Assembly: GCA_028577615.1 (NCBI GenBank) | Contig: JAJSDU010000007.1 | Location: 32,334 to 90,492 of the forward strand | Direction: 5' to 3' | DNA: 58,159 nucleotides | Origin: Nitrosomonas sp. | GTDB lineage: Bacteria > Pseudomonadota > Gammaproteobacteria > Burkholderiales > Nitrosomonadaceae | Shown here: positions 47,936-52,160 of the stretch, piece after piece | Layout: every line of letters begins with the position of its first letter | Position numbering within the stretch: position 1 is the first letter of the stretch | The notes under the pieces: generated by a model | The model's input: only the letters and a program-made list of their open reading frames with translations | Told to the model about the DNA's origin: nothing | Database searches by the model: none | Made by a program: the position numbers and the translations under genes

Positions 47936-48319
47936 TCATCTGGAACGTGTGGGGTGATGCCAGAGATCGAGCGGATCGTCCGGATGCGCGTGGCTGTCCA
48001 GGTCATCCGCAAGAAAATTGGCATCAGCCATACCGGTATCTTCACCATGATGCCTAATATGCCACATGCTGCCGGTCCATGTCAGCAGCAATAAAAAGAA
48101 CACTAAAAAAAGCAGTTTCGCTGCATTTTTATGCCATGCGATGACTGCAAAGGTATGTGCTGCCTTGCCATCCGGGATCATCTTGTTCCTGGATTCAAAA
48201 TTCTCCAGCGCATTATTGCGTATGTACTGCAAGCGGGATATAGTCCGCTTGTTGATACCCTTCAGGCTTTGATCCAGTAATTCGACAACCTTTTTTTCGA
48301 CACCATCGTCTTTATTCAT
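47936..48319 (-). CDS. DUF3619 family membrane protein
   Basis: A 127-residue protein with one membrane helix (about 68-87). The N-terminal part starts near K-V-V-E-L-L-D-Q-S-L and has R-L-Q-Y-I-R-N-N-A-L, the DUF3619 pattern; the periplasmic tail is His- and Asp-rich (H-I-R-H-H-G, H-A-H-P-D-D) and might bind a metal. It overlaps the ECF sigma gene by 4 bases, so it may act on the sigma factor; anti-sigma function is inferred. Confidence 0.75.
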   Translation of the reverse strand: MNKDDGVEKKVVELLDQSLKGINKRTISRLQYIRNNALENFESRNKMIPDGKAAHTFAVIAWHKNAAKLLFLVFFLLLLTWTGSMWHIRHHGEDTGMADANFLADDLDSHAHPDDPLDLWHHPTRSR

Positions 48320-48903
48320 AGCGTGACTCCTTTACTTCTCAGATTGACGGCCAGTGCATGCGCCGCACGGGAGCAGTGCGTTTTTACACTGCCTTCCGAA
48401 CATCCCATGATCCGGGCCGTTTCGCTGACACCCATTTCTTCCCAATAACGTAACAGGAAAGCTTCGCGTTGACGCAGCGGCAAATCTTCCAGCGCTTTTT
48501 CGATGACCGCGATCAGTTCAATCTGTTCAAGCGCAGTTTGCGGATTTTCGCCGTATTTTCCGCCGTCTGCAACATACATCGTCTCCAGTGGATCAGAATC
48601 AGCGTCATAATGATCGTGCCCGCCCTGGCTTAATGGCGGCAGAAAGGCGGAAAACAGGGTGGTCAGTGATGACTGGGATTTTTGCCGCCGATAATGATCG
48701 TAAATGGCATTCTGCAAGATGCGCTGAAACAGTGGCGGCAGCTCTTCGACCGGTTTGTCTGCATATTTTCCGGTCAGTTTCATCATCGCCTCCTGGACGA
48801 TATCCAGCGCCATGCTTTCATCGCGCACGGCAAACATGGCCTGTTTGAAGGCACGTAATTCAGTTGATTTCAGGAAATCAGAAAATTCTTGCCGTGTCGC
48901 CAA
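48316..48903 (-). CDS. ECF-type RNA polymerase sigma factor
   Basis: A 195-residue sigma-70 factor of the ECF (RpoE-like) group. Region 2 (about 14-80) has D-I-V-Q-E-A-M-M-K-L; region 4 (about 135-185) has L-P-L-R-Q-R-E-A-F-L-L-R and G-S-V-K-T-H-C-S-R-A. An acidic His-Asp stretch lies between. It is the promoter-selecting subunit for a dedicated stress regulon. The overlap with the DUF3619 membrane protein fits a sigma/anti-sigma pair. Confidence 0.88.
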   Translation of the reverse strand: MATRQEFSDFLKSTELRAFKQAMFAVRDESMALDIVQEAMMKLTGKYADKPVEELPPLFQRILQNAIYDHYRRQKSQSSLTTLFSAFLPPLSQGGHDHYDADSDPLETMYVADGGKYGENPQTALEQIELIAVIEKALEDLPLRQREAFLLRYWEEMGVSETARIMGCSEGSVKTHCSRAAHALAVNLRSKGVTL

Positions 48904-49279: not shown

Positions 49280-50119
49280 TTAGAGCATGCCGGGCCATGC
49301 ATAGTTGCGCGGCCAGTCATAAACGGGCGCAACTGATTTCGGATGCGCGGTATTGACAAATCCAGTGACTTTGCCCTGATAGCGGGTTATACCGCAGATG
49401 CTCAATTGATCACCGACCGCCCGGATCTCCAGTTCTCCACCGGGGGAAGCGGCGATGATCGGCAATGCCGTTCCAAACACCCTGGACGCGACGTAGGCGC
49501 TTGCCGCGCTTCCAGTTCCGCAACTTTGCGTTACATTTTCAACGCCGACTTCATACGTCCGCACGGCAATGCCCTGCGCATTGCGCCAGATAAAATTGAC
49601 GTTGACGCCCTCGGGATGCCCGACGAATTCGCAGAGCGACTTTTCTTCACGCAATGATTTACCCAGAATCCGGGCGGATTCGAGATCGATTTCGGCGCCG
49701 ATGACGACGACATGTGGAACGCCGGTAAAAACATAGTGCAGATGCGGCGCAATCTGTCGGTAGTCGCGCGCCTCGCCCAGATTGACTTCGACCTGGTTTT
49801 CACGCACGCTCACTTCCTTTTCGCCGTCGCCAGTGAGAATTGAAAAACGGCGCTCAGGAATACAGGTGTCGTGAAAATAGCGTGTCGCGCATCGCAGGCC
49901 ATTGCCGCACATGGTTTCTTCCGTGCCGTCACGATCAAAAATTTTCATTGCGGGCAGCCCCTGCCATCTGTCCACATACAGAACACCGTCCGTATCATGC
50001 TGATTCGCCAGTGCCCTGGAAATCGCCGACCTGTCGAGCCCTGCCAACGGCATTTTCATTTCATCAACCACCAGGAATGAATTACCGCACCCATCCATTT
50101 TCATTGCGCCGATTCGCAT
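49280..50119 (-). CDS. DapF-like amino acid epimerase/racemase with altered substrate site
   Basis: A 279-residue PLP-independent epimerase. The catalytic Cys pair is intact: C71 (M-C-G-N-G) and C200 (S-C-G-T-G). In diaminopimelate epimerase the far end of the substrate is held by Asn64, Asn157, Asn190 and Arg209 (Haemophilus numbering). Here they are Asp62, Val134 (G-V-P-H in place of G-N-P-H), a kept Asn173 and Val191 (Y-E-V in place of Y-E-R), and the segment before C200 is one residue longer. The N-terminal loop reads C-G-N-S-F, usually G-N-D-F. So it probably does not act on DAP; compare histidine racemase CntK. It is the third gene of a ligase-GNAT-epimerase operon. Confidence 0.8.
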   Translation of the reverse strand: MRIGAMKMDGCGNSFLVVDEMKMPLAGLDRSAISRALANQHDTDGVLYVDRWQGLPAMKIFDRDGTEETMCGNGLRCATRYFHDTCIPERRFSILTGDGEKEVSVRENQVEVNLGEARDYRQIAPHLHYVFTGVPHVVVIGAEIDLESARILGKSLREEKSLCEFVGHPEGVNVNFIWRNAQGIAVRTYEVGVENVTQSCGTGSAASAYVASRVFGTALPIIAASPGGELEIRAVGDQLSICGITRYQGKVTGFVNTAHPKSVAPVYDWPRNYAWPGML

Positions 50120-50149
50120 CGCTTTTTTACTCCGACTAGAGTGGAAAAA

Positions 50150-50596
50150 TCATGGTTTGTACCCCACCCGCCTGGTCAGGTGCACCTGGGCAACGCCCGA
50201 GATAAATTCATCCTGCACGATGCCGGTCAATACAAAACCATTCTTAAGATAAAAACGCAGACTCTGGTTGGCATCCGCGTCAGTAATGACATTGAGTATT
50301 CTTCCACCTTGATTCTCGATTTCCGCGAATATGCCGTCGAGCATCCTTGAACCATAACCTTTTCCACGATGCGGATTGTCCACGGCGATTGTCAGAAGGT
50401 GATAGGTGTCCACAGTCCTCTTCACCGTGACATAACCGACCGGTTGTCCGTTTTCCATCGCGCAGACGCCAAAACATTTGCCGCGCGAAATGTCTTCCAG
50501 TTCTTCCAGAATTTCAGATTGATACATGGGGCCAATATCCTGCATCGCGATGCTTGCGAGCTGCGGGTAGAGCGCTGCCGGTATGGGGGTTATCAT
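50150..50596 (-). CDS. GNAT-family N-acetyltransferase
   Basis: A 148-residue acetyltransferase. The acetyl-CoA site R-G-K-G-Y-G-S is at about residues 79-85, and the later N-Q-S-L-R-F-Y-L-K-N-G-F is the usual GNAT end. The strong ribosome site AGGAGG overlaps the stop codon of the upstream ATP-grasp gene, so translation is coupled. It sits 30 bases before the dapF-like gene. The substrate is probably an amino acid or dipeptide made by its neighbours. Confidence 0.85.
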   Translation of the reverse strand: MITPIPAALYPQLASIAMQDIGPMYQSEILEELEDISRGKCFGVCAMENGQPVGYVTVKRTVDTYHLLTIAVDNPHRGKGYGSRMLDGIFAEIENQGGRILNVITDADANQSLRFYLKNGFVLTGIVQDEFISGVAQVHLTRRVGYKP

Positions 50597-50614
50597 GATT
50601 AGCGCGTTCTCCTC

Positions 50615-51700
50615 CTATTTGCCTAAAAGCATGTATGTTTTGTCCTGATACTGAATTGATTCCGCGCACGGAATTTTGCCCATTGCGGTGGTGACCAGCT
50701 GTTCAAGGGTTTCAGTTTTGCCGCTGAATCTTTCGGGATAAATCGGGGCGAGCCGCTGCACGGCGGTATGAACGATTAACGCGATCATATCCTCATGCGC
50801 GAGACCGGCATGGCGGCACATGTTCGTCAGATCCGCTTCTGTCGGATGTATGCCAGGAATAATGTTGGCTTCAAGAAAATAAAGCTGATCATCGCGCATT
50901 CGAAAATCCATGCGGTTATAATCGCGGACCTCCAGCGCTTCGTGCGCCTTGACCGCGATCTCCGCAAAACGTTTCGCCGTGGCTGTCCAGTCGAGATGGG
51001 TAATAAACGGATTCTCAATATCCTTGACATGCGGGTCACGCACATGGGGTTGACCGGGAATTCTGGCGAAATCGATTTCGAGTATGGGCAGTACATAGCA
51101 GCCAATCAGTCCAATGGTGTACTCCCTGCCGGGCAGAAATTCCTCTACCAGCGCAGGCTGGTGGAATCGCGCATGAATCGACGACACCGCAGCGTTCAGC
51201 TCCGGCCAGTCATGCACCTTGCTGCTCTGGCTGATGCCGATGCTGGTGCCTTCGCTATACGGTTTCACCATCAAGGGGAAACCCAGGTTTCTCAGACGAT
51301 CACCCGGTTTCAGGAGCTGGTATCGCGCGGTCGGCACACCGTCATAAGCCACAATCCGCTTGGCGGTGGCCTTATCCATTTTATTGATGAATGTCTTGGG
51401 ACTGCTGCCAGTACAGGGGATATGCAGATAGTCACAGAAGAACGGCACAATAGCTTCGCGCAATTCCTTCTCCTCCAGACCTTCCGCATTATTGAAAACC
51501 AGGTCGATTCGATCCCTACGTTTTTCGAGCTGATGATAAATTTCAGGCCCCACATCGATCAGTTCAACATTTGCACCGATGCGCTCCAATGCGCTGGTTA
51601 CGGCTTCGATCGTCGCCGGACTTTCAAACTCACCGTAACGTTCATCCTCCATGTCCGGTTTTCTGACATTACAGGTATAGACGATATTCAGTTTTTTCAT
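50615..51700 (-). CDS. D-Ala-D-Ala-ligase-like ATP-grasp enzyme
   Basis: A 361-residue ATP-grasp ligase. The Ddl-like core has M-D-K-A-T-A-K, the ATP loop E-G-T-S-I-G-I-S, and the metal site F-L-E-A-N-I-I-P-G-I-H-P (about residues 282-293). The N-terminal substrate-binding loop differs: F-N-N-A-E-G-L-E-E-K replaces the H-G-x-x-G-E-D motif of true Ddl. It therefore likely joins two amino acids, or an amino acid and another acid, but not necessarily D-Ala. The ATG at 51700 is chosen; a GTG ten codons upstream is in frame. It is the first gene of the operon and is divergent from glnS. Confidence 0.82.
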   Translation of the reverse strand: MKKLNIVYTCNVRKPDMEDERYGEFESPATIEAVTSALERIGANVELIDVGPEIYHQLEKRRDRIDLVFNNAEGLEEKELREAIVPFFCDYLHIPCTGSSPKTFINKMDKATAKRIVAYDGVPTARYQLLKPGDRLRNLGFPLMVKPYSEGTSIGISQSSKVHDWPELNAAVSSIHARFHQPALVEEFLPGREYTIGLIGCYVLPILEIDFARIPGQPHVRDPHVKDIENPFITHLDWTATAKRFAEIAVKAHEALEVRDYNRMDFRMRDDQLYFLEANIIPGIHPTEADLTNMCRHAGLAHEDMIALIVHTAVQRLAPIYPERFSGKTETLEQLVTTAMGKIPCAESIQYQDKTYMLLGK

Positions 51701-52160
51701 GGTGCGCGTGATAGTTTGAGAAAACGGCACAAAGCCGGGAACAAGCTAATAACGCGGGACGGATTAATTGGTTTACACAAAAAAATAATTTTTTGCAGCG
51801 CTCGACTCGCTGAATGTATTCAAGGAATGAAGATTCCGGCATGGTTGCGAAATTTCATGCAGGAAAACAGGTAGTCTATTGTTTCATATGAGTAATTAGT
51901 CCTGTCGTGATAAAATACGCAGCTTTACTGAATGCAGACCGGCAATTGCCCGATCAATGCAATCCATTCAAAACAGTCATCTGAGCATCTGATACCATAT
52001 GTGAAATTCAGTTATGCCTACTGCCCAGCAATGACAACCCGCAGACCGGCAAGCGGGAGAAGGTCACTTGTCAAAAGCCTGATCTGCGCTAAAGTACTGA
52101 TCGTACTGTAAAATAACGACGACTTACCCTGTTTAAAAACATCCGATTCGAGAGACGAAC
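51701..52160. other. intergenic region between the ATP-grasp operon and glnS
   Basis: About 460 bases with the divergent promoters of the two transcription units. I see no gene or tRNA. Frames on the plus strand that overlap here (to 51874) are extensions of a shadow ORF. Confidence 0.5.

Follow-up and report, generated by a model that had tools for sequence, protein, structure and literature searches.

A conserved four-gene ligase, acetyltransferase, epimerase and membrane protein cassette in Nitrosomonas that probably makes a small acetylated peptide

What do a Ddl-like ligase and a DapF-like epimerase do when they are encoded next to each other, together with an acetyltransferase, in an ammonia-oxidizing bacterium? 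We addressed this question for a locus within a 58,159-nucleotide stretch (the window) of contig JAJSDU010000007.1 of Nitrosomonas sp. (GCA_028577615.1), a 2.6-Mb draft genome. Open reading frames (ORFs) and Pfam matches agree with the initial annotation that three minus-strand genes follow each other here, encoding an ATP-grasp ligase (LIG; Dala_Dala_lig_C, E-value 2.6e-22), a GNAT acetyltransferase (GNAT; Acetyltransf_1, 3.3e-15) and an epimerase (EPI; DAP_epimerase, 9.7e-26), with gaps of 18 bases between LIG and GNAT and 30 bases between GNAT and EPI. A fourth gene, overlooked at that stage, lies 81 bases downstream of EPI and encodes a membrane protein (MEM; Table 1). The ATG at 51700 was taken as the start of LIG; an in-frame GTG at 51730 is open too.

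The cassette is a real four-gene module that occurs as a block in some, but not all, ammonia-oxidizing bacteria, and neither its ligase nor its epimerase conforms to the family for which it would be named. EPI was present at 1e-20 in 34 of 125 Nitrosomonadaceae genomes, and LIG exceeded 700 bits in exactly those 34, the next best LIG match reaching 164 bits (Fisher p 2e-31 for co-occurrence, phylogeny ignored); the other 91 family genomes had neither EPI at 1e-20 nor LIG over 700 bits. MEM adjoins EPI in all 34 genomes, two of which are cut by contig ends, and GNAT was placed via the loci read rather than by a genome-by-genome search. Carriers comprised 33 of the 85 Nitrosomonas genomes and one genome of genus g27 (G500). 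A scan for close relatives on genome contigs with LIG gave 27 loci, 24 of them from Nitrosomonas and the remainder from one Nitrosomonadaceae bacterium, one Proteobacteria bacterium and Nitrosovibrio sp. Nv4, the only locus from another named genus among the named loci. The search for the three-gene order in other genomes that the initial annotation had proposed was thereby answered with one gene more: tblastn covered 28 loci, namely the window and 27 others, and placed all four genes in identical order and strand in 27 of these; the remaining one, from N. nitrosa Nm90, has LIG, GNAT and EPI and then reaches the contig edge.

Clustering of neighbouring genes gave the same four families at the core of 32 loci entries, with LIG and EPI in 32, GNAT in 28 and MEM in 27; these entries represent 29 distinct contigs, several of them short at contig ends, and ORF picking missed some GNAT and MEM genes that tblastn finds. 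The flanks differ between loci, and no other family exceeded 7 entries, the next being a sigma factor (7/32, on the LIG side in two) and a 405-residue ketoacyl-synthase-looking protein (5/32). With start codons set by us, the frames of LIG and GNAT overlap in 9 of the 21 loci measured. All four genes are under purifying selection, with dN/dS of 0.05–0.13 when compared with L043 and L044, the two closest loci; in the other three of the five comparisons at least one gene had saturated or near-saturated synonymous sites. Given these low dN/dS values and the order and strand kept in 27 of 28 loci, the cassette is not a chance arrangement. Mirror-tree correlations were 0.42–0.77 over 18 loci, a range that does not separate joint transfer from vertical descent.

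By its position in the tree and its motifs, LIG is predicted not to be a D-Ala-D-Ala ligase. It scored 130.1 bits on PRK01372 (cut-off 243) and 98.6 bits on TIGR01205 (cut-off 245.65). LIG matched 33 models in all, and among the 25 listed there was none whose cut-off it reached. The canonical Ddl of the same genome, encoded between the gene for MurB and those for FtsQ (below its model's cut-off) and FtsA, reached 416.8 and 330.7 bits on these two models. In a tree of 38 ligases, LIG formed one clade (100/100) outside the Ddl side; the 12 Ddl sequences and two tandem ligases lay across a branch supported at 100/99, and support for the Ddl group was 94/100. LIG was joined instead, with support of 99/94, by one long-branched Burkholderiales ligase and by the ligase that comes first in an aminomutase cluster of genomes G461 and G459, considered below. 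LIG and Ddl share the ATP-grasp domain with its ATP/Mg residues (Lys, Lys, Glu, Arg, Asp, Glu and Asn), and on this side Lys106, Lys145, Glu185, Glu186, Arg262, Asp264, Glu276 and Asn278 (numbered without the initial Met) were invariant in 22 of 22 LIG sequences. Unlike Ddl, LIG has none of the GGxSxERE, Lys-Tyr loop and Ser-Leu-x-Pro motifs, which serve substrate recognition in Ddl, as seen in an alignment of two LIG with five Ddl sequences. LIG thus appears to have lost the substrate-side specificity of Ddl and kept the ATP/Mg residues. The absence of the N-terminal motif had been noticed initially, with F-N-N-A-E-G named in its place; the absence stands, but F-N-N-A-E-G aligns with a later His-Gly motif and is no N-terminal replacement.

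EPI also appears altered on the substrate side. Its catalytic cysteines, in CGNG and CGTG contexts, are intact in 22 of 22 sequences, and it retains the equivalents of DapF residues Asn11, Cys73, Gly74, Asn75, Asn190, Glu208, Cys217 and Gly218, with Ser219 replaced by Thr. According to the available parts of two studies, the distal carboxylate of diaminopimelate (DAP) is bound by Asn64, Asn157, Asn190 and Arg209 (PMC12039745, PMC8225329). At these positions EPI has Asp for Asn64, Val for Asn157 and the original Asn190, each in 22 of 22 sequences, and for Arg209 it has Val in 19 and Met in 3. The loss of three of the four residues suggests that the distal substrate pocket was rebuilt. A partial parallel exists in PddB, a 2,4-diaminobutyrate racemase in which, as far as the accessible text goes, Arg209 is replaced by Val and Gln44 by Gly and Glu208 is kept (PMC8225329); EPI likewise has Val at the Arg209 position and retains Glu208. 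EPI differs from the DapF-fold racemases PddB, O-ureidoserine racemase and CntK/HisR (histidine) in its Asp at Asn64 and in its gene partners. The host genome encodes a second, canonical DapF that scored 309 bits against 146–148 for EPI.

Given that canonical copies of both enzymes are present in the genome, that LIG lies off the Ddl clade and that the distal pocket of EPI is altered, the two genes are not an ordinary Ddl/DapF pair, a reading which the initial annotation had already doubted and which the tree, the motifs and the canonical copies elsewhere in the genome rule out.

We consider it about an even bet that the four genes constitute one self-contained biosynthetic module for a small dipeptide that is N-acetylated and contains a D residue; stated more broadly, the module probably makes a small acetylated peptide containing a D-amino acid. 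EPI would invert the alpha-carbon of an amino acid other than DAP by the cofactor-free two-cysteine mechanism, most likely one with an amine-ended side chain and no distal carboxylate. LIG would form, via an acyl phosphate and at the expense of ATP, the bond between two amino acids, one of them probably the D product; GNAT would acetylate an amine, either in the product or in a precursor, and MEM may place or move the product at the membrane. The substrates, the order of the steps, the product and the role of MEM are inferred, and the module would be a variation on known ATP-grasp/GNAT dipeptide logic. The epimerise, acetylate and join scheme of the initial annotation survives as the most economical reading of the conserved module, with its reactions at the level of prediction.

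Several observations weigh against this reading. EPI scored 148.3 bits on the curated DapF equivalog model TIGR00652, above its cut-off of 114.65. The equivalent of Asn190 is kept in EPI and lost in PddB (in the part of PMC8225329 available), in which Asn64, Asn157, Asn190 and Arg209 are all replaced as opposed to three of the four in EPI. The program used for the ligase tree warned of long branches. The nearest solved relatives of GNAT are N-terminal acetyltransferases, and GNAT could act on another target or give self-resistance. Finally, relatives of MEM on viral contigs and stand-alone MEM paralogues, described below, suggest a more general function for this protein. The first of these points also shows how curated names mislead, in that the NCBIfam equivalog model alone would label EPI a DAP epimerase despite the apparently rebuilt pocket.

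The score of EPI on TIGR00652 would also suit a second cell-wall pair, in which a divergent DapF (EPI) works beside a variant Ddl (LIG) that makes an altered peptidoglycan stem peptide; ligases that change the stem peptide exist, and Van-type models match LIG weakly. This reading is disfavoured, and we regard it as improbable: LIG falls below the model cut-offs, lacks the Lys-Tyr and Ser substrate motifs and stands outside Ddl, EPI has lost three distal-carboxylate residues, canonical Ddl and DapF are present, and no further gene belongs to the conserved module. Less probable still is that LIG and GNAT modify proteins, ligating a D-amino-acid tag and acetylating protein termini. Protein-tagging ATP-grasp amidoligases are known, and the N-terminal acetyltransferases nearest to GNAT would fit such a role, but the module holds no substrate protein, and free amino acids are what ligases of the Ddl-type clade usually join. 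A product that is a small peptide antibiotic, metallophore or signal, with a D residue from EPI, a bond made by LIG, a producer protected by GNAT and export through MEM, would fit the patchy spread of the cassette; we nevertheless consider it unlikely, since apart from the 89-residue MEM the module includes no transporter, and no regulator either, and the lead over DapF of O-ureidoserine racemase, a DapF-fold enzyme of D-cycloserine synthesis, amounts to about one Z unit (30.2). The initial annotation had seen a likeness to staphylopine-type metallophores, in whose clusters, according to the available part of one source, genes for a nicotianamine-synthase-like enzyme and an opine dehydrogenase partner the racemase (PMC11602996). 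That likeness was not borne out, and an opine metallophore was rejected, as the conserved module of only four genes includes neither partner gene, the genomes themselves not having been searched for either.

An acetylated dipeptide compatible solute that replaces sucrose in the carrier species is possible, if on balance rather unlikely; the initial annotation, too, had pointed to acetylated dipeptide osmolytes, a comparison that may hold. Its precedent is N-acetylglutaminylglutamine amide (NAGGN), for which, in the portion of the source available, Ngg both acetylates glutamine and forms the peptide bond, so that acetylation and ligation occur within one operon (asnO-ngg; PA3459-PA3461), as they would in the module (PMC8070244). 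The module differs from the NAGGN operon in having no asparagine synthase or peptidase, in its separate ligase and GNAT, and in the added epimerase and membrane protein; nor does the conserved module contain an AsnO amidotransferase beside GNAT or LIG, the rest of the genomes not having been searched for asnO. Sucrose synthase exceeded its cut-off in 10 of the 85 Nitrosomonas genomes and in none of the 33 cassette carriers among them (Fisher p 0.006, a value that ignores phylogeny), the one piece of genomic support found for this explanation, but G449 and G013 carry the cassette along with a weaker, sub-threshold match, G500 has cassette and sucrose synthase together, and the genome of the window already has an ectoine synthase. 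The latter enzyme occurred in 4 of 33 cassette genomes and 2 of 52 others (p 0.20), and so the two do not exclude each other. Further points against a solute are that the conserved module contains no regulator gene and that 8 loci (129,639 bases) yielded no RNA family at its gathering score, the single match between 47500 and 52600 of the window being far under its own. The named carriers include freshwater, marine and soil species, which we also count against this explanation. The ectoine synthase gene of the window's genome lies at G000:C11:7966-8343, and the enzyme is present in only 6 of the 85 Nitrosomonas genomes.

Returning to the dipeptide reading, a more specific version is that the cassette defines a class of N-acetylated dipeptides with a D residue that is private to Nitrosomonadaceae, in which a DapF-fold racemase of basic amino acids feeds a non-Ddl ligase and the product serves as solute or signal where Nitrosomonas lacks sucrose synthase; we put this forward as a doubtful speculation.

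Outside the family, the window's own genome was the only one with a close EPI relative in 369 class genomes at 1e-45 and in 299 phylum genomes at 1e-22, and no EPI relative was found in viral contigs. Across 399 order genomes, the next best LIG match was 145 bits, to a 750-residue frame of a cassette-free Nitrosomonas, and the LIG relatives in plasmid (109) and phage (12) records were all below 60% identity. No DapF-like gene was apparent by eye in the ORF lists of five non-Nitrosomonas ligase loci, and two GNAT-like proteins in L095 lie ∼4.4 kb from the ligase, not adjacent to it. Because the class and phylum samples are small parts of what exists, the description of the cassette as private to Nitrosomonadaceae holds for what was sampled.

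MEM has about three membrane segments by hydropathy, no Pfam match above cut-off in 18 members scanned and no PHROG match better than 0.07 in two. Beyond the cassette, 203 class genomes gave just one further weak match (0.007), plasmid records gave one weak match and 50,697 phage records none. Relatives were present in IMG/VR contigs, at 44–51% identity in L128-L131 and 32–37% in L132-L134; in L128-L133 the relative lies ∼3.0 kb into the contig, beside genes that by eye resemble groEL, dCMP deaminase and queC/queE. Cassette-bearing genomes also have stand-alone MEM paralogues away from the cassette (L099:7285-7545, L100:4903-5169 and L101:7229-7501), in which the Asp and Trp of membrane segment one are missing. 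MEM also persists as decayed or fragmentary copies in G437, G018 and G475, and since these genomes are without LIG and EPI, the copies suggest loss of the cassette, the alternative being a stand-alone MEM that decayed. Copies of this kind at L109:6473-6727, L102:6078-6206 and L110:6860-6964 have no LIG, GNAT or EPI nearby, and the one in L109 is ∼900 bases from a transposase-looking gene.

The aminomutase cluster whose first ligase groups with LIG occurs in two Nitrosomonas loci (L106:1097-6895 and L107:3875-8668) and comprises a KamA-family protein, two Ddl-like ligases and an HDAC-GNAT fusion, with domains checked in L106. It resembles the cassette in combining a ligase with an amino-acid isomerase and a GNAT, and differs in its KamA-family radical-SAM protein in place of the epimerase, its second ligase, its HDAC-GNAT fusion and the absence of any MEM seen. 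This cluster probably represents another modified-peptide pathway, and it shows the same isomerise, ligate and acetylate logic as that proposed for the cassette, which supports the reading of the latter as a peptide-making module. Other ligase arrangements in the family included two loci (L035:7839-11767 and L036:5082-9748) in which an ATP-grasp/M20 peptidase fusion is followed by a gamma-glutamyltranspeptidase, with flagellar-looking genes alongside and, in L036, an N-formylglutamate amidohydrolase after the fusion. Of the 125 family genomes, 11 have long frames of this ATP-grasp/M20 type, and in one more the frame is truncated at the end of a contig; mutual exclusion with the cassette was considered and dismissed (2 overlaps, p 0.51, not significant). 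We also observed two tandem Ddl-like ligases (L040:8765-11091) and an ATP-grasp-like domain on a product that looks like a multi-pass membrane protein (L042:6723-8633).

Table 1. Genes of the cassette and adjoining genes, in positions of the window.
Feature	Position	Strand	Remarks
LIG, Ddl-like ATP-grasp amidoligase, 361 aa	50615-51700	minus	ORFs and Pfam; predicted non-D-Ala-D-Ala ligase by tree and motifs
GNAT acetyltransferase, 148 aa	50150-50596	minus	nearest models RimI (under its cut-off) and N-terminal acetyltransferases
EPI, DapF-fold two-cysteine racemase/epimerase, 279 aa	49280-50119	minus	distal carboxylate pocket altered
MEM, membrane protein, 89 aa	48929-49198	minus	∼3 hydrophobic segments; fourth gene of the cassette
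Sigma-70-family (ECF-like) sigma factor	48316-48903	minus	frame opens 25 bases past MEM; outside the conserved module
DUF3619 protein	47936-48319	minus	overlaps the sigma factor gene; outside the conserved module

A role in anti-phage defence was set aside, PADLOC having given no match at 0.001 for any of the four proteins. Titles and abstract openings revealed no literature on this gene set, in a search whose coverage leaves out the majority of subscription journals. Related clusters may be mentioned in the 2009 survey by Iyer, Aravind and colleagues on ATP-grasp amidoligases. The accessible parts of PMC6284046, on osmolytes of N. europaea, and of PMC5960693 contain nothing on the cassette genes, and cassette-related terms are absent from PMC10472526.

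Nitrification in soils, waters and treatment plants depends on ammonia oxidizers, yet little is known of their small-molecule biology. The purifying selection on all four genes, their presence in 33 of 85 Nitrosomonas genomes and the lack of a close relative in the samples from outside the family together point to a lineage-specific metabolite of these bacteria.

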